A stretch of 64,000 nt of DNA from Hydractinia symbiolongicarpus. Lineage: Eukaryota > Cnidaria > Hydrozoa > Anthoathecata > Hydractiniidae. The notes under the pieces are model-generated. The model was not told the DNA's origin. It did not search any database and worked only from the letters and a program-made list of their open reading frames with translations. The DNA lies in contig NC_079881.1 of NCBI RefSeq assembly GCF_029227915.1, forward strand, positions 18,079,501 to 18,143,500, in the 5' to 3' direction. The stretch's first letter is position 1. Every line of letters begins with the position of its first letter. Positions 19,726-50,844 of the stretch are shown here, in pieces. A program made the position numbers and the translations under genes.

Positions 19726-19749
19726 CTGCCACAATGTCTAACTTCCTTT

Positions 19750-20497
19750 TGTATAGGGGCAATCTACGACCAACCAATCTTGTGAGATGGGGAATTGAGA
19801 AAGACAAAAGTTGCATGCTGTGCAAGAAACCATCCTCAAATGTCTCTCACATATTGGGTGCCTGTAGGACCTCCCTACGCAAGGTATATACCCATATCGC
19901 CATGACTCGGTTTTAATTGTTTTGGTTAAGGCATTAAAAGAGTATTTGGTATCATATGAACCTCTAAAGTTTCCCAAGTGCAACAAAATCAATTTCATTC
20001 TAGCTGGTCAATCACCAACTAAGAAGAGGAATACAGATTTAAATTCCGTTTTATATGTTCCACCATACATTGCAATAACACAACTACGTCCAGACATGTT
20101 ATTAATATAGAGTTCTTCCAAAACTGTAATTTTATTAGCACTGACTTGTCCATGTGAAGAGAACACAGAATATTGGCACGAACAAAAGCTTAAGAAATAT
20201 TCTTCACTTTGTTATGCTATGAAAAGCAATGAATGGATCGTCCATTTCTTTGCCATTGGAGTGGGTGCAAGGGGTTTCTGTTCAGAATCAATAAGGACCT
20301 GTTTTCGTCGCCTTGGTTTCCCTAACAAGCCTTTACGATCCCTATTAAAATCCCTCACTTTTGTCTCCATGAGTGCTTCTTTTGATATCTGGATGTCTCG
20401 AAATTCTACCATATGCGTTGAGCCTAAAAAGGGCCCAATCATTCCTGAAGTTTCTTCTGTTACAAATATGGAATGTAGGAAACCAAAAACCCCTTAG
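19750..20497 (+). pseudogene. RLE endonuclease domain, LINE copy B
   Basis: Begins NLVRWGIEKDKSCMLCKK, SNVSHILGAC (CCHC knuckle). A frameshift then leads into the RYTYRHDS-like box. Next are LRPDMLLI, an in-frame TAG at about 20107-20109, then LALTCPCEE in place of the usual ELTCP: the acidic residue is lost (E to A). It continues WIVHFFAIGVGARGFCSES and a C-terminal helix-rich part ending FDIWMSRNST. The R2-type order is clear, but this copy is catalytically dead. It leads through a Pro/Ser/Lys-rich linker to the USP domain one frame away. Confidence 0.75.
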
Positions 20498-20589
20498 AAA
20501 TCTTACACAAGTCACACAAAATCTTGCAAAATCAAAAAACCTGAAAAACTTGCTACAAGGTCTTTTAAAACAACAGTCTGATTGCCATC

Positions 20590-21426
20590 AACACTGATTT
20601 TAAGAATGGCCGTCTAAAAAACTTGGGAAGCACGTGTTATGCAAACTCAATCTTACAATGTTTTTATAACCTTCCAAATGTTGAAAAAGCCCATTCCGTC
20701 AGCAAAACAAACTCTAAGTTAGATGAAGCATTTCTAGCTGTTCTTCAAAGTTTGGCTGTTTCTAGAAGTCCAGCTGACCCCTCCCATTTCTTGCGTGCTA
20801 TGAAACATATCTCAGCTGCGAAGGGATGTGCGTTTAATGTTTTTGCTCAGCATAACATCCCTGAGGTTCTTAAATATCTTCTACCTGGTGTGTCATTAGA
20901 CTTTCCATTTTTTGGAAGTCTTTTTAGTATTGGCATCAAGACATCAACCACTTGCAATTCATGTCATATTACCAGCTCCTCAGAAGTTATAGCACCATGC
21001 ATCCAACTTTCTCTGTACCCTGCAATACAATCTTCCTTGTATAGTTTCTTTGAAAGCGAGGAGTTGTCAGACATTAATGCCTACTTCAGCCAGGGTGTCG
21101 TGCGGTTCCCATCTTATTTTACAGCTAAGCGTTTTGCCATTGCCAACAACCTTGTGTCAAAAATTGCCTCTCGTATTATTGCTTACCCTGGTACCATTTC
21201 CATACCTTTTACCGTAGAAGGAGAAGTGAAATTTCGTAAAAATTTTCAATTAAGGGCTATTATCAACCATTGCGGCAACTTAAATAATGGTCACTACACA
21301 ACCATAGCCTTCGACCAAATGGTACACAGGTGGATACATTGCAACGATAGAGCAGTAATTTTCTATGATGACCGCCTTATTAACAGTCATGAGTCATATG
21401 TTTTCTTTTTAGAAGAGCTGAGATAA
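20590..21426 (+). pseudogene. Ubiquitin-specific protease (C19) domain, LINE copy B
   Basis: Reading frame from about 20590 to the TAA at 21424-21426. It has the USP Cys box (LKNLGSTCYANSILQCF), a QQD-like box (FAQHNIPEVL), a CNSCHITSS half zinc ribbon, the region ahead of the His box (YPGTISIPFTVEGEV), the His box (NNGHYTTIAFD) and a closing HCNDRAV with SYVFFLEEL. USPs cut ubiquitin isopeptide bonds with a Cys-His-Asp/Asn triad; Cys and His are present here. Relative to copy E, roughly 50-80 bp is missing around 21095-21140, removing the second CxxC-like part and the LQLNRL strand. It ends directly before the LINE tail. Confidence 0.75.
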
Positions 21427-21985
21427 CAATATTTTAACCGGAATGAGTCAGCAGGGGCGGTTGACTACACTCAGTCTTGTCTTTGGAGAGTGACGACTCC
21501 ACTATTACCCCAGTCAAAAAATATATATATGTATTAGCAGGGGGTTTGATCACACATGATCTTGTCTTTGGAGTGTAACGACTCCACTTATTACCTGAGT
21601 TAAAAACAAAGAATAGCACAGTTAAACAGAAAGTGGTCAAAGTTTACTTTGGAAGATAGGGATGTCTAGTTTCTGCTGATGACCGTCCGCGGACCTCTTC
21701 GAGGTGACCCAGCTAGACATCCAGGGTACTTAGGTTCAGAAATATGGGTCGAAACCTACCTGCCCTTGGTTAAAGTTCTGTTATTTTCAAATGTGTTGTG
21801 TCCTTTTTATTTTATTTTTTTTATATTTTTAATTCTTTGTAAAAAGGGAGAATTGTGCTTTTAGAGGCATATTCTTTAGAGGAGTACAACCTCTAGCTTG
21901 TTTCCAAAGACCTAACAGGTTGAGTTTATCATTGCGGTGGCTTGCCACCTCTTTGTATAAGTTATTTTCTTATTCTCATTCAGCG
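21427..21985 (+). repeat. Structured 3' tail of LINE copy B
   Basis: Two tandem modules each contain GCAGGGG..TTGA, a small hairpin (GACTACACTCAGTC in the first, GATCACACATGATC in the second), a hairpin GGAG..CTCC and TTATTACC. After them comes a stem GGATGTCTAG/CTAGACATCC enclosing the palindrome GTCCGCGGAC and the hairpin ACCTC-TTC-GAGGT. The tail finishes with hairpin TAGAGG..CCTCTA and GGTTGAGTTTATCATTGCGG. In LINEs the 3' UTR is often recognised by the reverse transcriptase, so a recognition role is plausible. Confidence 0.7.
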
Positions 21986-22036
21986 ATAATATTTTATTAT
22001 TGATCACTTATAGCGCGTGCTCGCTAAACAAAGAAG

Positions 22037-22082
22037 TTTTATCGATAATTTAGATTAAACAAATATAAAATTATCGATAAAA
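22037..22082. repeat. 15-bp perfect inverted repeat
   Basis: TTTTATCGATAATTT (22037-22051) and its exact complement (22068-22082) are separated by 16 bp. It could be a remnant of a small inverted-repeat element. No flanking duplication was found. Confidence 0.6.
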
Positions 22083-22089
22083 ATAGCTA

Positions 22090-23609
22090 CGGGATTTTCT
22101 TTGTTTTTTTATCCCTATTTATCGCTATTTTGCTAGGACTAAATTAGCGTAAATTTAAATAATAATAACAGCAGTACTTGATAAATGCTAGCGAGCTAAG
22201 ACAGCTAAGTTTTGATCTCTGGCTGCGAAAAGTGTCATGCGCACGTAGAGAAAAACGCCGTGTCTAAAAGTTAAATAATTATTTTTTTTAGAAATATAAT
22301 TATATTGTAAAATAATTACTTCAACCCTTCTGACATTAGTAGAAATGGAAATAAAAACGGTGTGCAAACACCAAGAATGCAATCAATAGAATTAAAAAAA
22401 TTGAGAGATACAAGTTATGACGGTATACATTAGGCATCATGGTTTGAAACGGCAAGATGGCAGAATGAAACATTCCATGCAACTAGAATTTGTATCCATG
22501 TATTTCATAACAATCGATACAGTAAGTGCTGTAAACTTTTATTTCGCTGCAAAGCTTTTGATTTGAGGTTATTTTGCTTAAAAGTGAATTAGTGCCAGTA
22601 TACTAATATCAGTGGTAAATCAGGCGATACAGACAAAATAATGTGTACTAATGTTCCTAGTATAGCTAAGCAGAAATCACACTTTGTTTAGAATTAATAT
22701 ATTATTAAGAAATAGTATACTATATTGTACAAGCGTATAATGTACTTTTAAACAGCTAAATGAAATCATTTAGCTGTTTAGATAACAGCTCAGGTTGGGT
22801 TGCAAAACTTTCAAACTCGTTATAATTGAAATAGAAAGTTCGATTATTAATGTGGGAAAAAAGGCAAAAAATTTAATAAATTATTAAAAACTAATTTGGG
22901 TAAGTCCAATACACACCTTTTTAATACCGAAATTGAGACCTCATCAAAAATTTGTTTTAAAACATAATATGGAATTTCCATAACATAACATAAAAGCTCC
23001 ATAAAAATGATTTTCTTAATTCAAATTGAGTGTACTAGCTTCCCATAAATAATTGACTAAACTAAACCTGGACACCTTGGTTCACTTAGCCCTAATTTCT
23101 TTTGCATGTTTGGTTACAAACAATTATTTATGGGGCACCTAATGAAACTTTTGTTCGGTGCTACCCTGATTTATTTGAATTACAAGGTTTCTAGCGGAAT
23201 AAGTGGGTGGAGGTTGGTAGGGTTGGTATCGGTGTTGTGGTGGATGCTGTGGTGTTTTTTTATCCCTTTTTTCCTATTTAAATTTTTTGTGGTCTTTACC
23301 TCCAGTCCAGGCTTTAAAGCTTCTTTTGCTTGTAGGGCCTGGATAATTTTTTTATATACACGAAACTGTTTAAGTAATTAATCTAAACAAAAAAATAATC
23401 TGGTTTTACCAAAATTTAGTTGTGTCAAAAAAATTTACTATGGTAAATGTAATAATTGAGAACATAACCTGTAACAAAATATTTTGGAATAATGACTTTT
23501 TCTTCGTTACATTAAAAAAAATTAAATTAAAATTTCTTACCTTTGTTTCCACTTTTTCATTCTCATTTTCATTCACGTGATTCTAAATTAAGTGTAGGAA
23601 AGTAAAATT
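22090..23609. other. Gene-poor interval before Harbinger element
   Basis: Apart from the two inverted repeats annotated separately I see no supported feature. The plus ORF at 23106-23381 is hydrophobic and low-complexity, with no family resemblance. Confidence 0.4.
22749..22780. repeat. Near-perfect 15-bp hairpin
   Basis: TAAACAGCTAAATGA and its complement are separated by only two bases. Function unknown; it lies in an otherwise gene-free stretch. Confidence 0.65.
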
Positions 23610-23805
23610 TAAAGGCTCGAATACACGGAACAATTTTACAGATCAATTTTCGAAAAATATTATTTTTCGGAATATTGTTAAAAAAAATACACACAAAAAT
23701 TTTAGGTCAATAATTACTCAATTCTTAAATTGATTTAATATTTTTGTATACATACACGAGACAATATAAAGAACAATCTGAATTTAATTTACCACAACAT
23801 CAGGC

Positions 23806-25145
23806 ATGAGCGACAACGAAGAAGAAACAATTTTGTGCTCCTTGATCTTTTCAAGCAGTGTCATTCTTTCACATGGCAGAAAAGTTAGGAAAAAAAAAAC
23901 TGTATGGGTGAAAGATTGGGTTCATCACAGAAATGAAGAGCTTATAATACAATTCTGAACGAATTAAAATTAACGGATTTTGAGAGCTACCGAAGCTATT
24001 TAAGAATGAACACGGATACTTTTTCAGGTAAGTTTGATTACTTCATTTTGCATATCAAGGATATATCACTTCATTGTGACAGCATTAAATCATTCATCAT
24101 TCATCAAAAACAACGAACAATGATGCGAGATCCAATTTCACCTGAAGAGAAGTTAGCTGTCACTTTGCGATTCCTTGCAACTGGTGAAAGTTACGAAAGT
24201 TTGATGTATCAATTTCGAATTCATAAAACAACTATCTCTCAGTTCATACTAACTGTTTGCCAAGAAATTTATTTGTCTTTCAAGGATCAATACTTACATC
24301 TACCTAACACCAAAGAGGAATGGATGGCGCAAGAGGAAAAGATTCGAACGCGTTGGCAATTTCCAAATTGCATTGGTGCTGCTGATGGGAAACACATATC
24401 TATTCTACATCCTAAGGATTCTGGGTCAGAATTCTATAATTATAAAGGATTCTTTTCAATTGTACTTCTCGCTATAGTCGATCATGATTAAAAGTTTTGC
24501 TTCGTGGATGTTGGCTGCCAGGGAAGAATAAGCGACGGCGGTGTTTATAGAAACAGCTATTTTTACAAAGCTTTAGAAAATGGTGACTTAAATCTTCCAG
24601 ATTGTAAGCCCCTGCCACAGTTTCCTGATCCAAACTGGGCTTATGATCAGAACAACGAGCCTATTCCTTACGTCTTTGTTGGAGATGATGCGTTTCCATT
24701 AACCAACAACTGCATGAAACCTTTCGCACAAAGGAAACTTACACCGAGAAATAGAATATTCAATTACCGTTTGTCACGATTTCGCCGCATTAGTGAAAAC
24801 GCGTTTGGAATATGGGTGAACCGTTTCAGAGTATTCTCCACCAAGCTCATGCTAAGTCCTGAAAAAGCAACTATCATTACGCTTGCCTCACACGTTTTGC
24901 ACAATATGTTACGAGATTTGTCGAAAGAGAGTTATACACCTCAATGGTTCATCGATTTTGAATGCGAAAACGGAGAAGTTGAACTTGGGCGCTGGAGAGA
25001 AGGAAGCTACACCGAATCCATTATTCAGAAATTGCCAGTGAACAGAAGTAATAGAGCGACCAACTCAGCTGAGTATATCAGAGAAGTGTTCGCAGACCAC
25101 TTTTATGGATCAGGACAAATACCATGGCAATGGAATCAGCTATAA
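23806..25145 (+). pseudogene. Harbinger (HARBI1-like) transposase
   Basis: The frame starts at ATG 23806 (MSDNEEE), shifts near 23940, and continues AYNTILNELKLTDFESYRSY into the helix-turn-helix (ISPEEKLAVTLRFLATG). The DDE catalytic motifs are GAADGKHI (D), VGDDAFP (D) and SENAFGIW (E). A single in-frame TAA at 24489-24491 (DHD-stop-KFCFVDVG) falls where the family usually has Tyr, so one base change explains it. The rest to WQWNQL at 25145 is open. With two simple lesions it is probably non-functional but recently so. The partner MADF protein lies convergently downstream. Confidence 0.85.
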
Positions 25146-25206
25146 ACTATTGCTGGTTATTTTTTTACCTTTGTACTAGAAAAAAAAACACGTATACAAA
25201 ATTATT

Positions 25207-26136
25207 TTATTGGAATAATCCATTGTTATAACTGCTGTAACTGTTGTTCATAAACACAGGTGATCCGAGAGGTGAAGAAGAAACAGAGCTGCTTGACGAG
25301 GAAGAGTGACGTCGTTTATACTTCAGTGACGTTGCGGAATGTTGCATGTTCAATTTAAGCATGTCTTTTTCTTCGCCATTCGGAATACTTGTTAATATTT
25401 TGCACAGCAATTCACAAAAAACCTCATCTTCCTTTTTTTCTTTCCTTTCAGCTCCTCCGTTTGACCTTTTCTCATTTAACTTTTCCAAAGCTGCAGCCGC
25501 AGAATGCATAACTTTTTGCGCTGTCTCCATGCTCGAATCGCGAATCTTCTTTGCGCTTTTTGCTGAGGGTGGATTCAAGACCTCGTACGTTGAATTTTCA
25601 TCGGCATTGCTGAAAGTTTTTCTTGGAGTAAACAAATCATTTAAAAAGTGCAAAACTTGAAAGAACTTCCAATTACTCTCGTAAACATCATCAGCTCCAG
25701 CGCCACTGGCCTTTGAAGATTCGACAGATCTTTTTTGACCACCATAGTATGTCTTTAGATTCGTGAGTTTACCTGCAATATCTTTCACTGAAGCAAAAAT
25801 ACCTTGGTCTGCTAATTCTTTCTGAATTTTTTCAAGAGATTTTTGTCGTGTATCACGATTAAAATATTGGCTGTTTCTTGTGTTGTAGAGATTATCGTGA
25901 TTCGACCAAGTTTCAATAAGAACAAAGATTTCGTCATCATCCCAATCTCTTTTTTCGGATGACTTTTTTGAAGGTCTGCCACGTTTTTTTGCAACCACAG
26001 CTGTTTCAGGTTGTGCAATCTCCTCAGCTGGTTCACTCCGTTTTTGCGTGTCCTGCGAATTGTCATTGTCAGGAATTGAGGATCTAAACAAAGTTCCAAA
26101 AAGCTTTTTGTACATTGAAAACCTCTCAGGAGACAC
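25207..26136 (-). CDS. MADF/Myb-SANT-like accessory protein of Harbinger
   Basis: Uninterrupted 309-codon ORF starting MSPERFSMYK. It has an acidic/basic N-terminal part with an AT-hook-like KKRGRPSKK, then a trihelix-type DNA-binding domain (WDDDEIFVLIETW ... IAGKLTNLKTYYGGQ). The C-terminal half has a Lys/Glu-rich helix (AAALEKLNEK) and a Ser-rich end. In Harbinger elements this second protein brings the transposase to the nucleus and to the element ends. It lies tail-to-tail with the transposase, 60 bp apart. No lesion was seen, so the ORF may still be expressed. Confidence 0.85.
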   Translation of the reverse strand: MSPERFSMYKKLFGTLFRSSIPDNDNSQDTQKRSEPAEEIAQPETAVVAKKRGRPSKKSSEKRDWDDDEIFVLIETWSNHDNLYNTRNSQYFNRDTRQKSLEKIQKELADQGIFASVKDIAGKLTNLKTYYGGQKRSVESSKASGAGADDVYESNWKFFQVLHFLNDLFTPRKTFSNADENSTYEVLNPPSAKSAKKIRDSSMETAQKVMHSAAAALEKLNEKRSNGGAERKEKKEDEVFCELLCKILTSIPNGEEKDMLKLNMQHSATSLKYKRRHSSSSSSSVSSSPLGSPVFMNNSYSSYNNGLFQ

Positions 26137-26421
26137 AGCATTGTGGTAGTAACAACCTCCCAGTGAACGAAGAATTCAAGTTTCGAATAGGAATCGCGAC
26201 AACGTCATTTCGCGACGTTGCACGTTAGGTGGAAGAGAGCAACGTGTAATCACGAAGAAAGTAGAGACAAAAACAAAATTATCTGACATGTTTAGTCGCG
26301 TTTCTCTTCATTTACTCTCTTTACGTGCATATAAACATTTGAAATGAATGAAATACCGAGCGTGAGTTTCGAAAAAAAGTGAGCAGATGGCGGTTTCCTT
26401 TGAAATAATATTGTTCCGACG

Positions 26422-26473
26422 AAAAATTGATCTAATAAAATCAAACCGGTTTGATTTTATTAGATCAATTTTT
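26422..26473. repeat. 52-bp perfect palindrome near Harbinger right end
   Basis: Two 26-bp arms, centred at 26447/26448 in ACCGGT, are exact complements with no spacer. The arm contains AAAAATTGATCTAATAAAATC, which resembles the subterminal TTGATCT motif of the element ends. It may be a subterminal duplication or a cruciform-forming scar. Confidence 0.9.
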
Positions 26474-26611
26474 GAGTGTTTTTACGTCATTATGGCATTA
26501 TCGTTCTGTTAATTTTCTACGATATATACGCAACAATATTAGATCAATTTTAGTTCAATATTTTATTTTGAAAATTGATCTGCAAAATTGTTCCGTGTAT
26601 TCGAGCCTTAA

Positions 26612-27195
26612 AGTAGACTCTTTTTATAGCCTTTTCCGCACTAAAAATATTGTTTTAGTTGATAATTTTGGGCTAGATGTCATTTTTAAAAATTTTTAAG
26701 TATCAGAATTAGAACATATACAAGGAGCGTAGAGTTTTATTTATTTTAAGAGCTTACCTGCCCTGTCTACTTCCATGATTTTTTATTAATTTTAGTTAAT
26801 CTAAAAATTAAAAAGAGGTGCTAGTATGTACCAAATACTAATTTATGAATAGCCAGCCCTGGAACAATATTAATACTATTTTTATTCTCTAATATCAGGG
26901 CCTGTGACATTCTTTACATACACTCTTTTGCAATACCTAGCCCTAAAACAATACCATCTATAGTTATTTATTTTTATTATTTTAAAATATCAGGTCTGTG
27001 ACATTTTTTGTTATATCAGAATTCTGGAACAAGCATCAGATTTCTGGAAAACCTATTTAGGTACTCTGGAAATTTTTATCAGAGCCCAAATTTTATATTG
27101 GAATAGGTGCAACAACATCATCTGTTCCCTCTGCACAAAAATGTCTTATTTCCTGATAAAGATACTTTCTCCGTGAAGCAGTAAAACCATGTGCT
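26612..27195. other. Unannotated interval
   Basis: About 580 bp with no supported ORF or repeat. Two related phrases, 'AATATCAGGGCCTGTGACATT' and 'AAATATCAGGTCTGTGACATT', occur around 26895 and 26988, suggesting an old local duplication. Confidence 0.4.
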
Positions 27196-27199
27196 TGAA

Positions 27200-27560
27200 T
27201 TATTTCTGGCATCTTCTTAACAAATTTTGTTGTTTTTTTATTGTTGGCGGAGAATCTAACCTCCTAAGGCAGTGGACAGTAACAGGGTCACTGCTCTTAA
27301 TACGAAAGTGATGGAACTTAATACGAAAGTGATGGAAGTCAGTTATGTTTGGAACTTTGAAAAAGCATTTAGAAAACATAAAAACCCAGTCATATATCGG
27401 CACAAGAACGTCACCAGTGTGTGTTCCTACTAGTTTAGATGTATTACATATAGCAGAGTCATCCCAACACTTGGCTATGACAGAAAGTGTCCATAGTGCT
27501 GTTACTGATGTGTTTTTTTTAATGCACCGAAACATCTGCCACAACTAAATTTAGTGTGAC
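27200..27560 (-). pseudogene. Unrecognised conserved-looking ORF fragment
   Basis: A 114-codon minus ORF (27544-27200) whose upstream context is lost. Visible features: TALWTLSVIAKCWDDSA, VPIYDWVFMFSKCFFKVPNI, and a 21-bp tandem duplication giving FHHFRIK twice. The 'P-YDW ... K-PNI--FHHFRI' pattern recalls an uncharacterised multi-copy protein family common in cnidarian and fish genomes, but I cannot name it. It probably belongs to a mobile element. There is no start context, promoter or splice evidence. Confidence 0.35.
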
Positions 27561-27654
27561 CGACAACCATGAAAGAATATTCAATTTCGTTGTGCAGGCC
27601 CATTAAAGTTCTCCATATCAGGTACCATAACACAAAGTTGTTCTTGTTTTGTAA

Positions 27655-28770
27655 TAATAATAATAATAATGTATATGTATAGTGGCAGTGCCCAGAATAA
27701 TCTTTCAGCTTTTAGACAGCTTTCGGATTTTTTCCGCTGGGGGCCACTTTTGAGAATTATTATACATCAGAATTATTTAGTTATGTTAAAAGGAAAGAAA
27801 AAGGTTAAAATATTTTATTGAGAATGTAAGAACTTAAAATTATTATTTAAAGTTATAATGTTTGCCAACTGCAACCTTGAATTGTAGGAGACTATTTAAT
27901 TTGGCAAACTATTCCAAAGCTTTGGAGATGAATATAAAAATGTGCTATTAAGACACCTTGCACCACTTCGATGGGAAACTATAACATATTACTTGTAGAT
28001 GATCTGGTGCTGTGACAATGGTTGCTTTTAATTAATGTTAGCTTATTGCTCAAATATGTAGGTGCAATCTCATGGACAGCTTTAAAAATGGAAATACTTG
28101 AGTTGAAATTAAATAGAGAGTTCAGATCTGAAGCATCTCTTCCCAAGAAAGTGTTGATGTTAGAAAATAATTTTTTACCTTTTTTAAAGATGAGTTATTA
28201 GCATTACACAATGTTGGTGAACAATAATACAAATATGGCATGACAAGAGGATTCATGAGTAATTGTTTTGTTTCATCCTTCAAGTTTGTATCTTATTTTA
28301 TTGAATTTATAATACGATTTACTAACAACGCTTTTGATGTGACTTTTCCAACTCAGGTTACTATCAAAGATAACCCCAGATAACCCCAGACCAAAGATAC
28401 GAAAGAAGGTGAAGTACCTGACGTCACCTTCCTTCCTAAAGTTAATTCAATGCCATCGTATGATATAATGATGTCTGTGCATGCTTTAAGTTTTGTTTTA
28501 TTTCCAAAAAAGATCACTTCAGTTTTATTTATGGTGACTTTATTAATGTGGATCCATTGCTTGACATTTATTTAACTCAATATCAAGTGCAGATTTAAGT
28601 TCAATAGGAGAAATACAGCTTGAATAATTATTGTGTCATCTGCATACAGATGGAAGTAAATGTGCATTGCAGATTCTAAATCATTAATATAAACAAGAAA
28701 CAACGGTCCAAGGACTGATCCTTGAGGGACTCCATAGGTCTCCTCTGGTATCACATCTGACATATAACTT
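27655..28770 (-). mobile_element. APE-type (CR1/Jockey-like) LINE fragment
   Basis: On minus the fragment starts in a reverse transcriptase: GVPQGSVLGPLFLVYINDL and YADDT (the catalytic motif). It runs through KTEVIFFGNKTKL to a C-terminal SSPKLWNSLPN piece, and ends with an (ATT)n tail at about 27658-27670. Only 28572-28763 stays open; the rest has stops and shifts. The tail and motifs match CR1/Jockey/Rex-type LINEs. It is truncated where it meets LINE copy C. Confidence 0.75.
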
Positions 28771-28771
28771 T

Positions 28772-29407
28772 TACCTCCATGAGTACTTCTTTTTACATCT
28801 GGATGTCTCGAAATTCTACCACTTGGGTTGAGCCTGAAAAGTCCCCAATCATTCCTGAAGTTTCTTCTGTTACAAATATGGAATGTAAAAAATCAAAAAA
28901 CCCTGAGAAATCTTCCGCAAGTCACACAAAATCTTGTAAATCAAAAAACCCGAAAAACTTGCTACAAGGTCTTCTAAAACAACAGTCGCATTGCCATCTA
29001 ACCCTGATTTTAGGAATAGCGGTCTAAAAAATGTGGGAAACACATGTTATGCAAACTCAATCTTACAATGTTTTTATAACCTTCCAAAAGTTAAAGAAGC
29101 CATTTCTGTCAGCAAAACAACCTCAAAGGTGTTCTTTAAAGTTTGGCTGTTTCTAGAAGTCCAGTTGACTCCTCCCATTTTTGCATGTTATGAAACATCA
29201 ATCTTAGCTGCGAAGGGAAGTCTGTTTAATATCTTTGCTCAGCACGACGTCCCCGAGGTTCTTGATTACCTCCTACCTGGTCTGTCATTAGACTTTCCAT
29301 TTCTTGGAAGTCTTTTTAGTATTGGCATCAAGACATCAACCACTTGCAATTCATGTCATATTACCAGCTCCTCAGAAGTTATAGCACCATGCATCCAACT
29401 TTCTTTT
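28772..29407 (+). mobile_element. RLE-USP LINE copy C (RLE C-terminus plus USP N-half)
   Basis: Begins at the end of the RLE domain (FYIWMSRNSTTWVEP), continues through the Pro/Ser/Lys linker, and enters the USP domain: GLKNVGNTCYANSILQCF, FAQHDVPEVLDYLLPG (QQD-like box with the Asp kept), GSLFSIGIKT, CNSCHITSS. A one-base loss in an A run about 28940 separates the RLE and USP frames. The copy breaks off after CIQLSF at 29407 where unrelated sequence starts. No 3' tail remains, so the 3' half was removed by deletion or recombination. Confidence 0.75.
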
Positions 29408-40190: not shown

Positions 40191-40319
40191 CAATTTAAGT
40201 GGTTTTGGGAAATATAATTGCTGTTGAATTAATACATTCCAAAATTAAAAAAACCTTGATCAAAAAGAAAAAAATGTACTTGTTGGTAAAGGAAATTTCA
40301 TCAGTAGGGATAGAAAGCA

Positions 40320-42245
40320 CGATTAGCTCGTGGTGTTTCATAGGCTGACAGTTCACCGACCTTGTATTTTTGAAAGAGGAACCACTGAGGCATACCTAAG
40401 TAACTGAACAACAAAGATATCACCACAACTGGAAATTTGTGTTTCAGATGTGCTCTCCTGGTGTGATTAACACTGGGGGCAAAACCACCGTTCGTCGCCT
40501 ACAAGCTGTTGCAGCAGCGAAATAGCCTTGAAAGAGTCCTGTGAAACTAAACCAATTTAATCGTGCAATGTACGATGGGGAAAGCGAGAGGGAATAACAC
40601 ACTGATGTTCACACATTGACTTGCATGTTGGTAAGTAAGAATTGTCTCCTTAAAGAAGCCGGATGGCTGACGAGAAAGTTATGAGACAACATTTTAATTT
40701 ATTGAACGATAATTTGACAAAGTTGGATATTAAAGATAAACCAGAGGGAATATTCAACTGCGAAGAATCTGGAGTTACCATAGGTATGCAAACTGGGAAG
40801 GTTAGTTGCTTTAAAGATTATATAAATTATGTGTTTCAACCTTATCCTAGTTATTTTCAGTATTTTATAGGATGCTGTTGAAAGAAAATTCAGCTATTCT
40901 GCTATTCAGAAAGCATAGCATGAAGTGAACATATCACCGTCCATGTCTGTGTGTCGGCAGCTGGGTATGCTCTTCCTCCTTTCACCATCCTTGAAAAGCG
41001 CTATCCGTCTGGTCCGTACGCAAGACTTGGTCCGCAAATCGGCTTGTATGCCATATGACCAAATGGGTATATGGATAAAGAGCTGTTTCGAAAATGGAGT
41101 GATAAACTGTTTATACCATCAACACAAAAAATCAAGAAACCAACACTGCTCATCCTCAAAGGTCATGGATCCCACATGGACATTGATATGATAGACATGC
41201 TCGCTGACAACGAAATCCATCTCTTCTGCTTGCCGCCACATACTACGAACATTTTACAACCACTCGATGTCACCATTTTTAAGCCTAATAAAGCTCACTT
41301 TTCCAAACTTACGGACTTTGTGACACTGACTTCACTTGGGGGAAAAAACAGCGTCACAATCCATCAAAAAACTTCACTGCCGTATTTCAAGAAGCATGCA
41401 GTAAAAAATGACCATGTCATTGATTCAGAAAGGTTTTCGGAAGAGTGGCATATATCCCTTCAACCCGGATTCCATTGACAAAAAACGACTTATGCCAACT
41501 TATCCACCCTCGTCCAATACACCATCAGCATCCGAAATCTCTGATACTTCTACGCTGCAGAAATAATGTGGATGTGATCCTAGAGCAACCAATATCTTAC
41601 CATCTCTTCCAGGGATGATCATAAGGTGGCAAAACAGCTAGCTGTAATGATATTTCTGGTCTAATGACAGCTGGTTCTACTATAGTTAGGTCTAATGACA
41701 GCTGGTTCTACTATAGTTAGAGGTTGCAACCCTCTAAAGATTTTTCAAAAAAGCAAAATCCCCCTTTTTGCAAGGATTTCCTAAAAACATTGACGGTAAA
41801 AAGGCAGAAAAATACGGTGCTAGTAATGTGGCTGACAATATTCCAAGCTCCTCAACACCGCAAAACGACCACAACAGCACGAGCAGTAGCAGCAGGAGAA
41901 TTAACCATCCCTTGTTGTCCGTCATACCATCTTCGCTAGTGGAATCAATAATTATTTCAAAAACACCTGAAAAAACATTAAAGAAATGTATGCGTAATAA
42001 CAAAGGCCCGCGTATATTCTGGGGATGAACACCGTGCGCTTTTTAGACAAAAAGAAAAGAAGAATGCGAAAAGAAAAACAAGCTGAAAATGCAAGGTTAT
42101 CTGCGAATAAGGACAAGGGGAAAACAACGGAAAAGAGAAAAAAATCGGTCAAAAGGATGGCACCCGTCGTATGAGAAAGCAGTGAAGAAGAGAGCGTTGA
42201 CGAAGAGACAGAGGAAGTTATTAAGTAAGTATTCAAGTGAGTCAG
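40320..42245 (+). pseudogene. pogo/Tigger transposase remnant 2
   Basis: Open pieces 40663-40881 and 41071-41478 carry the pogo DDE domain: PEGIFNCEESGV (the usual catalytic Asp is Glu), PTLLILKGHGSHMD (the second Asp is Lys) and TNILQPLDVTIF (third acidic residue intact). The C-terminal Lys/Glu-rich region runs, frame-broken, from GPRIFWG to about 42245. Two catalytic positions are changed, so it is inactive. A 31-bp direct duplication lies at about 41659-41720. A ~65-bp block at 40545-40610 is an inverted copy of the 174-bp repeat at 42895-43405. Confidence 0.75.
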
Positions 42246-42894: not shown

Positions 42895-43405
42895 TGTGTG
42901 AAAATCAGTGTGTTATTCCCTCTCGCTTTCCCCATCGTAAATTGAACAATCAAATTGGTTTAGTTTAAGTTTGTTCGAGCGAACATGTTGTTGTAGTTTG
43001 CTCTGGTTATCTACCAATATATAAGTGTTGATATTGGCAATTTGTGTTTCGTTCTTTTTTTAAAAAAATGTGTGAAAATCAGTGTGTTATTCCCTCTCGC
43101 TGTCCCCATCGTACATTGAACAATCAAATTGGTTTAGTTTAAGTTTGTTCGAGCGAACATGTTGTTGTAGTTTGCTCTGGTTATCTACCAATATATAAGT
43201 GTTGATATTGGCAATTTGTGTTTCGTTCTTTTTTTAAAAAAATGTGTGAAAATCAGTGTGTTATTCCCTCTCGCTTTCCCCATCGTACATTGAACAATCA
43301 AATTGGTTTAGTTTAAGTTTGTTCGAGCGAACATGTTGTTGTAGTTTGCTCTGGTTATCTACCAATATATAAGTGTTGATATTGGCAATTTGTGTTTCGT
43401 TCTTA
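42895..43405 (+). repeat. Three tandem 174-bp repeats
   Basis: Units start near 42897, 43071 and 43245 with GTGAAAATCAGTGTGTTATT and contain CGAGCGAACATGTTGTTGTAG; they are nearly identical. About 65 bp of the unit occurs inverted at 40545-40610. There is no ORF. They could be satellite DNA or a subterminal array of an unrecognised element. Confidence 0.9.
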
Positions 43406-44975
43406 AAAAACTAACTGAATAATGAGAGCATCAGTTGATTTCTACCGTCATTGGAGTTTTCGGCCCCGTCCTAGCACGGACTAATCAATAACTCCTCGTG
43501 ATAGTGGGCCATACCTTTGTTTAGGTATTCTCATCAATTAGTAAGAACAATTTTCTTTTTTTAACTTACCGTTCTCTTTGTCGTGCATATGTATGTCTTG
43601 CTACAACAGCTACTCGAGTGAAAAGAGGTCGATTTTAAGACATGTGCAGCCATATATAGTTGAAGGGCCGTTTAAACGGGCTGTTGTCAACTGTTGTTCG
43701 TCTTTTTCAAAAAAGCGCAATGTGAGTATTAGTTGTTGCCATAGCGATATGGGTTATGATTAATTTAAGAGACCGGTTGCAACTTTGTACTCAGGTCTCT
43801 TTTATAAGTAAAACACAATTTAGGATTTTAGTACGGCTAATTTCAGAGTTGGACACGGCTAAAGGTGTCCATGCGTTACGTTTTGTTGAAAGTTTGTGTC
43901 AACAGGCCGTTCTACAGTATATTTTTTGTTTGATATTTTAAGGCACAATGGTGGTACATAATGTTGCTATGGTAATATGAATTTTAGTTGGTTGGAAAAA
44001 CAGTTTAGGTGTCAAGTGTCGTTTAGAAGTTGATTTGGGCACTATGTCTCTATGTTGTTAGATGGCTGTGGTAACAGACCGTTATTAAATGTCGTTCGAT
44101 TCGACCAATTGTAAATATTTTTTTCATATCATGAGTACAATGAGTTGCTATGGTGATATGGATTTCTCTTCTTTTTAAGAGAGTTGGTATATTGTAGCTC
44201 ATGTCACGACGTTGTTTTATTTTGTGTTTCAGAATTAACGGTACCTTTGTTCGTTACACTTCCTCCTAAAATGACGGAACAAGTTAGTTCCCAGTATCTT
44301 TGCATTAAATGTATTGTGATGTGTTTTATAACGGTGTATATCAAGTTTTCCTGTTAGCTATAATAGAGTTGGTAATGGGGGAAGAAAGTTGGTCTTATAT
44401 AAAGAAAGTTACGCTTATAAAAAAAGAAAGTTACGCTTATAAAAAAACAGTTTATATCAATGATGGTATTTGTTTGTGGATTTATTGTACTTTTCTTGTG
44501 CTTCAAGGTTGGTTGTTGATGAAACCTTTGAAATCGACATTGAAATGGAACGTTCGATCTCATCTCCACCTTTAGGTTTTGTTGTCGAATTGCCAAGGTT
44601 ATTGTTTAAGAAAACGAAGAAAGGGTATGTTTTATCACTATTAAAAATATTTTAAGACATAAAAATCCCTTTCTTTGTGTAATTCGTCAAAATAAAATTC
44701 CCGCCAAAATAAACATTTTTTTTGTATTCGCCAAACTTAATCCACGCCAAACTTTATAAAATTTATCATTTGCCAATTTAAATACTCGGCAAAATTTATC
44801 CACCTAAAGATATTTTAATCTCTGGGGAGCAATTTATTTCTCGGATTTTATTTTCTTATCGATAGGCTTGATTTACCCTGAGATATTTATATAAGAAAAC
44901 CGATATGATATCCCTAAAAAGGTTTATTATAACTATACTTTACTGTAAAATAGTCTGTGAAACTGTGTATGCATT
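43406..44975. other. Unannotated interval
   Basis: About 1.6 kb without a recognised domain. Several short ORFs (43578, 43756, 44309, 44470) have no motifs. A 24-bp direct duplication (GTTACGCTTATAAAAAAA) lies near 44410-44450, and 44690-44830 holds several 'CGCCAAA' phrases suggestive of an old repeat. Confidence 0.4.
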
Positions 44976-44978
44976 CAT

Positions 44979-45052
44979 GCCCTGTTGGTCTAATGGTAAT
45001 GACTCTCATTTTTAAATAAAAGATCCAGGTTCAAGACCTGATTGGTGGACAA
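44979..45052 (+). repeat. tRNA-like sequence (degenerate)
   Basis: It has an A-box-like TTGGTCTAATGGTAATGACT and a B-box-like GGTTCAAGACC with a mostly paired T arm (CCAGG/CCTGA, four of five pairs). The acceptor stem does not pair well. More likely a tRNA-derived repeat or pseudogene than a working tRNA. Confidence 0.3.
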
Positions 45053-45159
45053 AAATGAATTGTTTTGGGGGCGACAATGTCCAGAAGATTGAAAACAATA
45101 AATTATATTAACAATAAATGTACAAAAATAAAGGAAATGAAGAAATATGTTAGGAAAGT

Positions 45160-46395
45160 CTTGAGTACTTTGTTGAATTTCCTATTATTTTTCTCGTTCA
45201 GGTCGTTCTTTGGGGACGTTGTACGTCCGTTTTCGATCATTTTGGACACGAATTTCTCTATCAACCGCCCGATAGTACGAACTTAGAGCAATTTCTCTGA
45301 GAAAATTATGATTCTTTTTTTTCATGACCTTTTTAGCAACAAAGCGTTTTAAATATCGATGCCATGAAATTTTAAACTTAGGCTTGTAAGTGCCTTCGCG
45401 GGATTTTCGTTTTTAACAGCCTATAAAAAAGATGAAATAACAACGGAAAGTTATGTATTAAAATATAGATGACGTGCCAATAAACTTTACCTGTTCCCGA
45501 TATACGTTGAGTTTATGATCCAGCGCAGCTAGTTCAACCCCCGCAACCACTTTTTCTTGCTCAAAAAAAATGCTTTTGGGTAAGTAACGAATCTTTAATG
45601 CATGGAACACTTCTAAATACGTGGTAAAGATATTTTCATTCAGCTTCCTGATATCTTTTACAAAATGTGCATTAATGACGACATTCTTAAGGGCTTCGTA
45701 GGCAGGTGAACCTGGCGTTAACCAATTTCTGCTTTGAGCCTCTTCGACAGAATACTTTTCATGCTCACATTTAGTGTAATAGATACCAGGAAATGAATGT
45801 CGATTACGCGAGTGATAAATAACTGAAAGAAATAGTTCAACCAATTCTTCAGGATTACCATGACATGTCTTTATTGACCAATATAAATGATTTACTATTG
45901 ATGGAAAACCCTCTCCCAGTTTTTGATACGCTATAAAAAAGCTTGACAATTATATTGCACGTATTCACTATATTGCTACCAGATACCATTCCAGAACTTA
46001 CTTTTTTTCTTTGCAAACTTCACAAGCTATTTTGACATGTTTTTCGCTAAGTGCCACGGATCGAACTGGTGTATTGTGTGTTTAAATTTATCGTCTGTTG
46101 CCATTAATTTTCGTATTTGTATGTGCCTATCAGTGGAGACAGCTCTAACACCAACCTCATCATCTAACCTTTTCACGCAAGTCATGAAGCCGTGCTTTTC
46201 CATTCCTAAATATGAGATCAGTGTCACTTTTAACAGTGTATACATATAACAAGCAATGGTACTTATGTAGGGTTACGTATAGTACCTACCTTGCGAATTT
46301 TTGACTTGCTTTACATTTACAACTTCCATATCTAAAACTTTGTTTGTTTTACAGTCCATTGACGTTACTATAAAATAGGTTGCGTTGTGGCCAGG
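45160..46395 (-). pseudogene. Second Kolobok transposase, cut by LINE copy D
   Basis: Minus exons: about 46390-46290 (DSPGHNATYFIVTSMDC ... VVNVKQVKNSQG), 46245-46027 (GMEKHGF, VSTDRHIQI, HQFDPWHLAKN), 45949-45458 (FPGIYYTKCEHE, LKIRYLPKSIFFEQEK) and a basic C-terminal piece from about 45420 (YKPKFKISWHRYLKRF). It parallels 6791-8224 exon by exon. LINE copy D begins at its upstream edge, around 46395. No matching P2X7-like gene or inverted ends were found here. Confidence 0.75.
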
Positions 46396-46399
46396 ACTG

Positions 46400-46968
46400 T
46401 CCGACTGGCCACCTACACCGACGTCGATATTACCACCACACTTAAGTTCTTACCTGATTATGAGCCAGTAAAACCATCTAGATGTCATAAAATATCCTTT
46501 GTTCCAGCTGGTAAACTTCTTCCCACCAAAAAGCATTCAAAAATTCAAGGAATCCTTCACCTGGCCTCTGATTGGAGATTATTGTCAGACTTAGATTTAA
46601 CCCTAATAGTACCACCTTATCTTGCTGTAACTCAACTTCGTCCGGACATACTTTTAACTTCTGCCATGACTAAAATTGTAATTATCCTTGAATTAACTTG
46701 CCCATGCGAAGAGTACATGGAGACTTGGCATGGAGTCAAGGTTGATAAATACTTGTCACTTTGTTCCGTCATGAGATTAAACAATTGGTCTGTGCATTTC
46801 TTTGTTGTTGAAGTAGGAGCTAGGGGATTTTGTTCCGAAAATGTCAGAATCTGCCTCCGTCGCCTCGGCTTTTCTAACATGTCTGTGCGTTACACTCTGA
46901 AATCTCTTACTGAGTCATCTATGCGATCGTCGTTTTACATCTGGCTATCTCGAGATTCTTTGTCTTAA
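46400..46968 (+). pseudogene. RLE endonuclease domain, LINE copy D
   Basis: Best-preserved endonuclease of the family. From LKFLPDYEPVKPSRCHKISF it continues RDWRLLSDL-like sequence (SDWRLLSDLDLTL), then LRPDILLTSAMT, VIILELTCPCEE and KVDKYLSLC: the R-PD, E and K-x3-Y positions of R2-type restriction-like endonucleases, all intact. After WSVHFFVVEVGARGFC comes the helix-rich end SSFYIWLSRD. The zinc knuckle is lost by truncation. It terminates at TAA 46966-46968, after which the same frame runs on for 85 codons into the USP Cys box. Confidence 0.75.
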
Positions 46969-47004
46969 ATTCATCCTGGTAGGGATCCACAGCATACCGC
47001 ACAA

Positions 47005-47755
47005 TTGATACCAACTGTTTCAAAGAAATCATCCAAGTCACAAGCAACTTCGACCACTAGCTTTAAGGACACGAATCATCAGGACGTAACAAAGAGCTCC
47101 AGTACCTTTCCTGCACAAGAATCACTAGGTACCAACATTGGCTTGCTGCATTTCCGCAACACATGTTACATCAATTCAATCTTGCAATGTTTTTATGTTT
47201 TTTTTATGTGTTCAACACTCGTGTGAAAATCTGCACTACTTGCAGCGCTTGCAATAATATTAGCACCTCTGAGCAAGTAAGTGCATTTCTTCAACTTCCC
47301 TTGACATCGACTGTACAATCTTCAATTGATAAAATTTTGGAGAGCGAAGAATTGCAGGTGTCAATTCGTACTTCTGTCACTACTGCAATAGTTACCAAAC
47401 TGCAACAGTTGAAAAAGAAGTCGCAGAGTGCAGTTCAATTTTGGTTCTGCAATTAAAGCGCTTTGCCTATAACAAAGGTCTTGTGTTTAAGGTTTGTTCT
47501 CCTGTCACATTTTACCCAGGCACCGTTTCTATACCTATCACTGTAGACAGTGAAGTCTCTTGTCGCAAGCACTACAACTTAAGGGCTGTAATTAATCACT
47601 CTGGAAATTTGAACAATGGCCATTACACTACTGTTGCTTATAACCAAGTGCATGGTAAGTGGTTTCATTGCAACGACAGAGCAGTGGTCCCTTGCAAACA
47701 AAGATTGTTTGATGGTGTACAACCTTACATCCTTTTCCTTGAAGAGCTTTGGTAA
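47005..47755 (+). pseudogene. USP (C19) domain, LINE copy D
   Basis: Frame 47005-47226 gives the Ser/Thr-rich linker and Cys box (FRNTCYINSILQCFY; the Gly before Asn is Arg). A deletion then removes the QQD region. Frame 47163-47456 has CTTCSACNNIS, and 47441-47755 supplies the LQLKRFAYNKG strand, YPGTVSIPITVDSEV, NNGHYTTVAYN (catalytic His), WFHCNDRAVV and ILFLEELW-stop. Two frameshifts separate the pieces. The latter ORF is clearly of the USP fold's C-terminal half. Confidence 0.75.
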
Positions 47756-48502
47756 ATTGCAGTCAGCACCACAACTTCCGGTTTATGTCAGCAAGGGGGT
47801 TTGACTATTCTTTTTTTTAATTTTTTTATAGTATTGTCTTTGCAGAGTGACGACTCCACTTATTACCCAGTCAAAATAAAAGCGAAAAACAAATAAAAAT
47901 TACGCCAGCAAGGGGGTTTGACTGTACCAGATCCCTATCTTTGAAGAGTGACGACTTTACTTATTACCCCTGACAAAAAGGAAAAAACAAAAAAAAAATT
48001 AAAACATATTAAAATTATGTCAGCAAGGAAGTTTGACTCCACTAGTCTTATCTTTGGAGAGTGACGACTCCACTTCTCACCCCAGTCACACATGATTGTA
48101 CAGAGAGGACAGATGAAAAGTTATGGATAAAACAAATGTCTGCTTCCTGCTGAAGACTGTTCGCAGACTTTTTTGAGGTAACTCAGTGACTTATAACAAA
48201 ATTTTATTAATTTCATTTAATCTATTTGCATATTCGCTATTCAATCCAGTGTATTTATTTTAAATATTCTGTTTTTCACCCACCTCATTGTTTAAATCCT
48301 TTTCTAAGTATTTAGAAATTTATTTTCCTCCAGTTGTTTTACTTTTTGAGCAAGTCTACAGCAACAATTATCTGTGTAAGGCTGAGTATTGGATCTCCGT
48401 AACACATGTGAAAAGCTACAGCCAGGGTCACAAGTCCTGTCGCACAGAGTTGTTTGCTTTAACTTAAACACGTTCATTTAAGAATAACGTGCATTTCTTT
48501 GG

Positions 48503-49045
48503 GTGGGTGCAAGGGGTTTCTGTTCAGAATCAGTAAGGACCTGTTTTCGTGGCCTTGCTTTCCCTAACAAGCCTTTACGTTCCCTATTAAAATCCCTAAC
48601 TTTTATCTCCATGAGTGCTTCTTTTTACATCCGGATGTCTCGAAATTCTACCACTTGGGTTGAGCCTGAAAAGGCCCCAATCATTCCTGAAGTTTCTTCT
48701 GTTACAAATATGGAATATAAGAAACCAAAAACCCCTAAGAAATCTTACACAAGTCACACAAAATTTTGTAAAATCAAAAAACCCGAAAAACTTGCTACAA
48801 GATCTTTTAAAACAACAGTTGCATTGCTATCTAACACTGATTTTAGGAATAGCAGTCTAAAAAACTTGGGAAACACATGTTATGCAAACTCAATCTTCAA
48901 TGTTTTTATAACCTTCCAAAAGTTAAAGAAGCCATTTCTGTCAGCAAAACAACCTCTAAGCGAGGCGCAGCATTGGTATGTGTTCTTCAAAGTTTGGCTG
49001 TTTCTAGAAGTCCAGTTGACCCTTCCCATTTTTTGCGTGGTATGA
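48503..49045 (+). pseudogene. Single ORF joining RLE C-terminus to USP Cys box
   Basis: One uninterrupted 180-codon frame. Residues 1-50 are the end of the RLE domain (MGARGFCSESVRTCF ... FYIRMSRNST). About 51-117 is a Pro/Ser/Thr/Lys-rich linker. About 119-130 is the USP active-site block (LKNLGNTCYANS, Cys at about 126). A one-base deletion just after shifts the frame, so the rest of the ORF is not USP; the USP frame continues in the ORF beginning 48877. This is direct sequence evidence that the endonuclease and protease are parts of one polyprotein. Confidence 0.8.
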
Positions 49046-49708
49046 GACATCATATCTCAGCTGCGAAGGGATGTGCGTTTAATGTCTTTGCTCAGCACAA
49101 CATCCCTGAGGTTCTTGAATATCTCCTACCTGGTCTGTAATTAGACTTTCCATTTCTTGGAAGTCTTTTTAGTATTGGCATCAAGACATCAACCACTGCA
49201 ATTCATGTCATCATACCATCTCCTCAAAAGTTATAGCACCATGCAACCAACTTTCTTTGCACCCTACGTTACAATCTTCTCTAGATAATTTCTTTAACAG
49301 CGAGGAGTTGTCAGACACTAATGCCTACTTCTGCCAGGTTGGCAACGCTCATCAAACTGCTCTAGTTGTAAAAGAGGTAGTGTCGTGCGGTTCCCTTCTC
49401 GTTTTACAGCTAAATCGTTTGGCCAGTGCCAACGGTCTTGTGTCAAGAATTGCCTCTCGTATTACTGCTTACCCTGGTACCGTTTCCATACCTTTTACCG
49501 TAGATGGAGAAGTGAAATTTCGTAAAAATTTTCAAATAAACGCTATTATCAACCATTGCAGCAACTTAAATAATGGTCACTACACAACCATAGTTTCGAC
49601 CAAATGGTTCACAGGTGCATACATTGCAACGATAGAGCAGTAATTTTCCGTGATTACCGCTTTATTAACAGTCACGAGTCATATGTTTTCTTTTTAGAAG
49701 AGCTGAGG
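48877..49708 (+). pseudogene. USP (C19) domain, LINE copy E
   Basis: Frame 48877-49140 has CFYNLPKVKEAISVSKTTSK and FAQHNIPEVLEYLLPG, ending at a TAA. Frame 49257-49643 has YFCQVGNAHQTALVVKEV, GSLLVLQLNRLA, YPGTVSIPFTVDGEV and NNGHYTTIV (His box). A frameshift then leads to the CNDRAVI and SYVFFLEEL end at about 49708. It retains the middle segment missing in copy B. Three lesions make it inactive. Confidence 0.75.
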
Positions 49709-50844
49709 TAAGAACATTTTAACCAGAATAAGTCAGGAAGGGGGCTTGACTACACTCAGTCTTGTTTATGGAGAGTGACGACTCAATTTATTACCCCAGT
49801 CAAAAAAAAAAAAATCAAATTAAAATTAAGTTAACAAGGGGCTTTGATCACACATGATCTTGTCTTTGGAGAGTAACGAATTCACTTATTACCTGAGTTA
49901 AAAACAAGGAATAGCACATTGAACAGAAAGTGGTCAAAGTTTACTTTAGGAAGATAGGGCTGTTTAGTTTCTGCTTATGGCCTTCCGCGGACCTCTTCGA
50001 GGTGACCCAGCTAGACATCCAGGGTACTTAGGTTCAGAAATATGAGTCGAAACCTACCTGCCCTTGGTTAAAGTTCTGTTCATCTTTTTAAATGTGTTGT
50101 GTCCTTTTTATTTTATTTTTTTTATTTTTTTTTTTTTTTTAATTAATTCCTTGTAAAAATGGAGAATTGTGCTTTTAGAGGCATGTTCTATAGAGGAGTA
50201 CAACCTGTAGCTTATTTCCAAAGACCTAACAGGTTGAGTTCATCATTGCGGTGGCTAGGCACTTCTTTGTAAATTATTTTCTTATGTTTATAAAAAAAAT
50301 ATTTCTTCACTGTTTTTGTTATATTTATTAGAAACGCCATTGTAGCGACGCATTACTTTAATAATTTGCTTGGAGATCATGTTTTTATTTCCTCCTTGTT
50401 TGATCATTCCATTAAAAGTATGGAAGATCGGGATATAAAGTCTTCGACTAGTAAGCAGCATCTGCCAATACGTAAAAATTCGGAAAAGATTGGTCCATAA
50501 AGGTAGATGATGGTATGTTCGCTTCCGATATGGCATGCGTACTATATGGAATGGAAATTTATCTCTTTTTCCGAAGAGTATATATATGGAAGTGCTGTCT
50601 TTTTTTATTTCAATTTCTAAATCTAGGAATGTAGCTTTGGTTCCATGTTGTTCGACTTTCGAATGTTGTTCTGTAGGGTAAATGGTGTTGTAACATGTTA
50701 GGAAATCTTCTCCGTTATTTATTGTACACAGATCATCAATAAATCGTCCTGTGTTGTTGTATTTATATGAACCTCTAGAGATTAATTTTTAAACAATTTT
50801 TTTTTCAAAGAAGTACAAGAACAGGTTTGCCCGAAAGGAGGCTA

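Follow-up and report, generated by a model that had tools for sequence, protein, structure and literature searches.

A C-terminal ubiquitin-specific protease domain in an R2-like retrotransposon family of the hydroid Hydractinia symbiolongicarpus

Fragments of one repeat family recur through a 64-kb stretch of contig NC_079881.1 in the assembly HSymV2.0 of the colonial hydroid Hydractinia symbiolongicarpus (hereafter the window, meaning the whole stretch analysed). Judged from the sequences of intact relatives elsewhere in the genome, the family is a restriction-like endonuclease (RLE)-type, R2-like non-long-terminal-repeat (non-LTR) retrotransposon with a complete C19 ubiquitin-specific protease (USP) domain at the C terminus of its only protein. 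Its lineages number at least four (F1 to F4), and reading of the sequences gave intact open reading frames (ORFs) in four F3 copies and one F4 copy. Our reading as a whole, to which we assign a probability of roughly 0.82, is that of a USP-bearing R2-like element that would insert by target-primed reverse transcription, would remove ubiquitin from its own protein and, in F3, would be copied from an RNA of more than one unit; taken alone, the removal of ubiquitin has about an even chance.

Results and Discussion

One ORF joins reverse transcriptase, endonuclease and USP

A single genome was searched, the 480.9-Mb assembly of 76 contigs. The USP sequence of the window returned at least 139 matches, many of them with internal stops. 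A first set of 20 loci, hand-picked for long or complete frames, contained many ORFs with the order RLE, linker, USP, and with the reverse transcriptase (RT) upstream and often frameshifted. A second search used an F2 frame as query; six further loci were taken from it, and it yielded the young lineage F3 (frames of 1,423-1,426 aa) and F4 (1,422 aa). Four F3 copies (L031, L035 and L036, 1,426 aa; L032, 1,423 aa) and the F4 copy L034 (1,422 aa) have a single uninterrupted ORF, and the ORF of the F3 copy L033 is split by a stop; further uninterrupted frames of 1,426 aa are listed among the genomic RLE matches. The intact ORF runs from an N-terminal region through the RT, a CCHC knuckle, the RLE and a linker to a complete C19 USP domain, so that RT, RLE and USP share one ORF in full-length copies such as L031 and L034, a point on which the original prediction, made from the window alone, had hinged. 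A separate downstream host gene as the source of the USP is ruled out by these uninterrupted frames of 1,422-1,426 aa. The three 1,426-aa ORFs differ from one another at 8-10 of 4,278 bases and full F3 units are 99.5-99.8% identical; because F3 copies are more than 99% identical, the lineage must have moved recently.

Pfam searches of L031 placed RVT_1 at residues 339-609 (8.2e-16), UCH at 1137-1423 (5e-32) and a sub-threshold zf-RVT match at 828-892; L034 gave a like result, with RVT_1 at 8e-16 and 5e-17 in the intact ORFs. The first ~330 residues of the L031 and L034 ORFs matched no Pfam family above cut-off and no Ulp1 domain at E 1. A profile built from six RT-RLE sequences found R2 proteins as its best matches in the PDB (9nl2, 6.9e-22), with LINE-1 ORF2 at 3e-10, and the R2 alignment runs on, collinear but weak, through the knuckle and the RLE, whose motifs are invariant in our alignment. 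The family has the features of an RLE-type non-LTR element, namely an RT of the type of long interspersed nuclear elements (LINEs) and R2, a knuckle and RLE C-terminal of the RT, no LTR, a fixed 3' end and a variable 5' end.

The USP is carried by the element

Genome matches to the RLE numbered 153, of which 150 were listed; 127 of these reach at least residue 224 of 228, and 23 were left out as too short. The RLE-USP pairing drew on 194 of 277 USP matches and then on 10 and 51 further ones. A USP match lay at most 1.5 kb downstream on the same strand for 82 of the 127 RLE ends, with a median gap of 166 nt. The additional USP matches accounted for 14 of the other 45 (16 pairings listed, two without USP residues left out), one of the 14 having 19 residues only. 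We read six of the 31 remaining loci and found USP remains in five (L037, L038, L039, L040 and L041), amounting to 17 residues in L037 and displaced by an insert in L038; in the sixth, L042, the RLE end leads into unrelated sequence without a USP. Among the matches listed, USP remains come next in 101 of 127, are absent in one and are not settled in 25. Neither an ORF ending cleanly at the RLE nor a full-length ORF stopping there, the case that the original prediction had named as fatal to it, was seen in the 102 of 127 listed matches that could be settled.

Most paired loci were picked through a USP match, and members of one lineage do not count as independent; the informative part is the agreement of RLE lineage with USP lineage. 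The lineage assigned from the RLE equals that assigned from the USP in all 23 copies with at least 60% of each domain covered. Distances in the RLE and in the USP are correlated (Mantel r 0.84, with 0 of 5,000 permutations as high) across 20 copies, three near-identical F3 copies having been dropped. The gap between the two domains follows lineage, with 145 nt in F3, 166 in F2, 181-184 in F4 and 184-201 in F1 (195 in the broken F2 copy D of the window). Because four lineages carry the USP at the same place with linkers of lineage-specific length, we regard it as element-borne, as had been proposed.

Motifs and constraint of the USP domain

A profile of five USP sequences matched USP8 best in the PDB (2e-39), followed by USP15 and USP2. 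The Hydractinia sequences resemble USP8-type deubiquitinases in having the entire USP domain, including Cys box, His box and zinc-ribbon cysteines, but here a core of ~290 aa is fused to RT and RLE, and identity between lineages is 29-53%. Motifs were counted in 23 USP copies, read in three frames and with dead copies included: the Cys box and the first CxxC pair are present in 23/23, the QQD-type motif in 21/23, the CND motif in 19/23, the second CxxC pair in 18/23 and the His box, GHY(W/T), in 17/23. By pattern, L031, L034, L035 and L036 hold every C19 motif (Cys box, QQD, His box, Asp/Asn and the zinc-ribbon CxxC pairs). The domain thus has the motifs of the C19 USP class and is predicted to hydrolyse ubiquitin.

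Selection was assessed in nine between-lineage pairs, three of which, those with L009, rest on 127-129 codons only; F1 and F2 are represented by copies that have decayed slightly. Between lineages the synonymous difference of the USP is 0.74-0.84 (saturated) and the nonsynonymous difference 0.28-0.55. The sister pair F1-F2 has identities of 0.51-0.53 in the USP, 0.57-0.63 in the RLE and 0.40 in the linker; in the sister pair F3-F4 they are 0.70 in the RT, 0.56 in the RLE, 0.47 in the N-terminus, 0.46 in the USP and 0.28 in the linker. Between the F1/F2 and F3/F4 groups, USP identity falls to 0.29-0.33. These comparisons indicate that the USP is under constraint, weaker than that on the RT and clearest within sister pairs.

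Several observations weigh against our reading. The RLE profile on its own had no PDB match at E 1, and the RLE call rests on motif order (R/KPD, ELTCP, KxxxY) together with the weak collinear extension of the R2 alignment; for lack of that independent match, the CCHC knuckle and PD-(D/E)XK-like RLE are recognised at motif level only. L032, one of the four full F3 copies, lacks the second CxxC pair by pattern, and a single-sequence AlphaFold model of the window USP had a predicted local distance difference test score (pLDDT) of 34 and was not used. The USP evolves faster than the RT, and between the F1/F2 and F3/F4 groups its ratio of nonsynonymous to synonymous difference (pN/pS), 0.60-0.73, lies little under that of the linker, 0.74-0.85. 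Synonymous saturation precludes an exact ratio of substitution rates (dN/dS), and the comparison of USP copies suggested earlier therefore yields constraint (nonsynonymous below synonymous difference) without a value. To these must be added the 25 of 127 listed RLE matches that are not settled.

3' ends and head-to-tail units

F1 tails end in ..TTGTAAATTATTTTCTT without poly-A, and their flanks differ between copies; F3 ends in ..GTAAACCTTTTTCAT, at times with a few extra bases. Insertion at one site, as for R2 sensu stricto in 28S ribosomal DNA, was not found, since no two of five F3 copies have the same 3' flank (the flanks were compared with one another and not with 28S).

The F3 unit is 5,369 bp long in L031. 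Ahead of it, in the copies read, stands the 3' part of a further unit, with a length of 291 bp in L031, ~110 in L032, ~200 in L036, 1,029 in L035 and 2.7 kb or more in L033. All five copies share the same junction, free of extra bases. With a probe across the junction, the best 40 of 558 candidates comprised 16 that span it, one that does so partly and 23 that are 3' ends only, and no free 5' end was among them. With a 5' probe whose first base lies 100 bases into the F3 unit, the best 40 of 44 candidates were scored: 11 were near-identical full F3 matches, each of them (11/11) joined to a preceding 3' end, one was a 100% match starting at probe base 50 and is therefore truncated inside the unit, five belong to a row of joined units on C13, and the other 23 (76-93% identity) are other lineages or pieces whose upstream sides were not read. 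F3 thus shows the pseudo-LTR or partial tandem arrangement in all 11 near-identical copies and in the five-unit C13 row. That row (C13:23682114-23703795) is a head-to-tail array with five F3-like unit junctions, 87-88% identical to F3 and ~5.3 kb apart. Terminal repeats of the F3 kind were not seen in L034 or in six F1/F2 loci, where the copies may be 5'-truncated. The 5' junction had no Rfam match to a known ribozyme at E 1 in L031, L033 or L034.

The lack of free 5' ends in F3 favours a multi-unit RNA template. The F3 template would span more than one tandem unit, and the upstream 3' sequence would act as a pseudo-LTR. Alternatively, the units could arise during insertion by end-to-end template jumping in the manner of R2, with no multi-unit RNA involved; we hold this to be possible but the less probable account. 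The R2 RT jumps between templates in vitro (excerpt of PMC8857657), the upstream pieces are not of one length (four lie between ~110 and 1,029 bp, and that of L033 is 2.7 kb or longer), and in the window an F1 tail adjoins the truncated copy B. Template jumping sits less well with the 11/11 near-identical F3 copies in which a full 5' probe match is joined to a 3' end, with a junction that is the same in five copies and has zero extra bases, and with five junctions spaced ~5.3 kb apart in a row on C13.

Tandem or partial-tandem arrangements with 3' sequence ahead of the following unit are known from Penelope-like elements, which have pseudo-LTRs (excerpt of PMC11167929), and from HeT-A/TAHRE, where a promoter in the HeT-A 3' untranslated region (UTR) points towards the unit that follows (excerpt of PMC5537684). 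Penelope-like elements, however, use a GIY-YIG endonuclease, of which the intact Hydractinia ORFs had no Pfam match at E 1, and HeT-A is telomeric, whereas the Hydractinia element is dispersed and RLE-type.

Other joins were seen as well. In L035 an F4-like copy is interrupted by a nested F3 copy, which separates its USP end from its 3' UTR. Elsewhere the 3' end of one element directly meets a second superfamily member that is truncated at its 5' end and at times belongs to a different lineage (window 19150-19770, L011 at ~8394, L028 at ~8399 and L032 at ~7888); such joins reflect either template jumping or nested insertion. In L012, satellite-like repeats at 813-1706 and 2806-3753 continue to the 5' boundary of an F1 copy and may be target or 5' UTR repeats.

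Comparison with known elements

The Hydractinia element shares with R2 and other RLE LINEs the order RT, CCHC knuckle, RLE in one ORF, the profile match to R2 structures and an end without poly-A; it differs in its C-terminal USP, its pseudo-LTR-like tandem units and the want of a common target in the five F3 3' flanks. An N-terminal Ulp1-like domain is present in nematode NeSL elements and in Utopia-1_TSP (excerpt of PMC4640811), in agreement with what the original prediction had stated of the NeSL group. These too are RLE LINEs with a cysteine protease of the ubiquitin/SUMO world, but theirs is Ulp1-like and N-terminal, whereas that of Hydractinia is a C19 USP at the C terminus of ORFs without Ulp1 at E 1. 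The missing N-terminal Ulp1 does not exclude membership of NeSL/Utopia, because only part of that group has it. Among DNA transposons, Ginger1 elements, including those of Hydra, have a C-terminal OTU or Ulp1 domain, and a Trichomonas vaginalis protein combining transposase_11 with Peptidase C19 has been cited (excerpt of PMC2836005); what they share with the Hydractinia element is that a protein of a mobile element bears an OTU, Ulp1 or C19 domain, at the C terminus in the case of Ginger1, but the Hydractinia element is a retrotransposon.

The repeat table for H. symbiolongicarpus assigns 0.18% of the genome to R2/R4/NeSL, 0.17% to CRE and 48% to unclassified repeats, and the available portion of that paper makes no mention of a USP in repeats (PMC10411563). 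No LINE with a USP was named among the titles and abstract openings listed in our literature search, with Repbase and most subscription journals outside its reach. We provisionally regard a LINE-borne USP as previously undescribed.

Possible roles of the USP

By analogy with the R2 family, the element would use target-primed reverse transcription, with the RLE nicking DNA and the RT copying the RNA. That it employs a deubiquitinase during its life cycle, as suggested earlier, is plausible. The tethered USP may strip ubiquitin from the element's own protein or ribonucleoprotein (RNP), which would shield it from host ubiquitin ligases and the proteasome; we give this most likely role about an even chance. 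Indirect support comes from the LINE-1 proteins of human and mouse, which ubiquitin ligases of the host restrict: TRIM41 ubiquitinates ORF2p and limits retrotransposition (excerpt of PMC10716122), and TEX19.1, likely with UBR2, drives polyubiquitylation and degradation of ORF1p (excerpt of PMC5570191). Being fused in cis to the RT, the USP would be well placed to undo such ubiquitination of LINE proteins.

We rank self-deubiquitination first and, next, an action on target chromatin, for example on ubiquitinated H2A/H2B or repair factors, that would open the site or steer repair and leave the element's own protein aside; this we consider unlikely, though worth weighing. Because one protein holds the DNA-cutting domain and, after it, the USP, the latter would be brought to the nick, and for Ginger1 Bao et al. 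suggested that the OTU/Ulp1 domains may serve in transposition or repair (excerpt of PMC2836005). On the other side, no chromatin-reader or ubiquitin-binding module was found among Pfam matches at E 1, and the present evidence does not separate a chromatin role from self-protection.

Cysteine proteases cleave polyproteins in many viruses, and the USP could likewise process the element's own polyprotein. We think this quite improbable: USPs recognise ubiquitin, the ORF holds no reliable ubiquitin-like domain (a sub-threshold APG12 match has E 0.042 and 14.7 bits against a cut-off of 22.8), and R2 proteins function unprocessed. Finally, a passenger USP, a piece of host gene gained once by 3' transduction and under no selection, might fit the internal stops in many genomic matches but is ruled out, for practical purposes, by conservation between lineages (all four retain the fusion in frame, although their USPs are 29-53% identical and synonymous sites are saturated), by the matching RLE and USP lineages and by the intact USP of young copies.

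Taken together, and tentatively, the element may be the first LINE known to have a USP, deubiquitinating itself to escape a ubiquitin-based host restriction older than bilaterians, and an R2-like element that replicates through multi-unit RNA; we hold this full combination to be rather less than an even bet. If it is true, ubiquitin-based restriction of LINE proteins would predate bilaterians. A built-in deubiquitinase, kept in four lineages and intact in young copies, would offer a natural test of ubiquitin as a general anti-LINE weapon, in a cnidarian host that serves as a model for stem cells. RLE elements would then have two kinds of cysteine protease, the second at a new position, and Penelope-like tandem units are shown in an RLE LINE.

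Element fragments in the window

What remains of the family in the window is fragmentary and dead. Most pieces belong to F1 (copies B, C and E, tail of copy A) or F2 (copy D, RLE of copy A), and a few to F3 and F4; no intact copy was seen among the longest frames examined. The signal is real and far above chance: window RLE and USP match other copies in the same genome at E down to 2e-105 and 2e-143, and the USP ORF at 20569-21423 of copy B matches Pfam UCH at 4.9e-27. The fragments are as follows.

1538-2218, minus strand: F1 3' tail of copy A (blastn 92%)
2221-2295, minus strand: F1-type USP of copy A, final 25 residues only (100% over 25 aa)
2301-3075, minus strand: F2-type connector, knuckle and RLE remnants of copy A (tblastn E 8e-89)
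5360-5893, minus strand: F1 tail with the last USP codons before it (sequence read and blastn)
19150-19266, plus strand: upstream F1 remnant, a connector piece leading into the tail at 19266 (tblastn)
19266-19723, plus strand: F1 3' tail directly adjoining truncated copy B at 19726, head-to-tail (blastn 91%)
19726-21970, plus strand: copy B overall (F1), a frameshifted RLE, USP and F1 tail
19726-20407, plus strand: zinc knuckle and RLE of copy B, F1, frameshifted and 5'-truncated (tblastn against the L011 RLE, E 9e-102)
20569-21426, plus strand: open frame of copy B with the C19 USP, 285 aa (match 20605-21423; Pfam UCH 4.9e-27, alignment)
21424-21970, plus strand: F1 3' tail of copy B (blastn against the L012 tail, tails compared)
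28764-29407, plus strand: copy C, with the final 21 RLE residues, linker and N-terminal half of an F1 USP (tblastn)
40276-40538, minus strand: F4-like USP fragment (tblastn E 3e-25)
46396-46962, plus strand: RLE of copy D, F2 (86% to the L009 RLE, E 2e-105)
47134-47749, plus strand: F2 USP of copy D, with frameshifts and gaps (tblastn E 2e-89)
47753-48186, plus strand: F2 3' tail of copy D (blastn 82% to the L009 tail)
48503-48658, plus strand: final 52 RLE residues of copy E, F1 (tblastn)
48848-49708, plus strand: F1 USP of copy E, with frameshifts (tblastn E 6e-121)
49709-50282, plus strand: F1 3' tail of copy E (blastn)
53557-54326, minus strand: F3-like 3' tail (blastn 88-92%)
55548-56012, plus strand: F1 3' tail alone (blastn 82%)
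57881-58423, plus strand: F3-like 3' tail (blastn 80%)

The original prediction described five copies, A to E, with a common order of RLE, linker and USP and the same 3' tail. The order holds, but the copies are not uniform: an RLE with a substantial USP is found in B and D and partly in E, not in A or C, and the USP of copy B lacks at least 12 residues of the zinc-finger region in the alignment. The shared tail is that of F1 in A, B and E, whereas D has an F2 tail and no tail match was found for copy C (28764-29407). The fragments at 5360-5893, 19266-19723, 40276-40538, 53557-54326, 55548-56012 and 57881-58423 had not been listed before.

Other features of the window

An ORF with DUF4371 (1.6e-18), a domain that we take to be hAT-like, lies beside an ORF with a possible OTU-like start (13626-14756 and 14728-16194, minus strand); the OTU-like start of the ORF at 14728-16194 had no Pfam match. 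The two are perhaps a second deubiquitinase-bearing element. An ORF at 17293-18150 (minus strand) has a YqaJ-like recombinase domain (4.5e-5). Two DDE_Tnp_4 transposase pieces lie at 11722-12303 and 24492-25142 (plus strand), the second adjoined by a MADF/Myb DNA-binding ORF at 25210-26175 (minus strand), and a transposase ORF with HTH_Tnp_Tc3_2 (2.8e-11) is found downstream of copy E at 50873-51691 (minus strand). A 174-bp tandem repeat is present three times at 42895-43416, with 94-99% identity to the reference copy. The PMP22/claudin-like ORF at 60377-60931 (plus strand, 1.6e-7) is probably a host gene.

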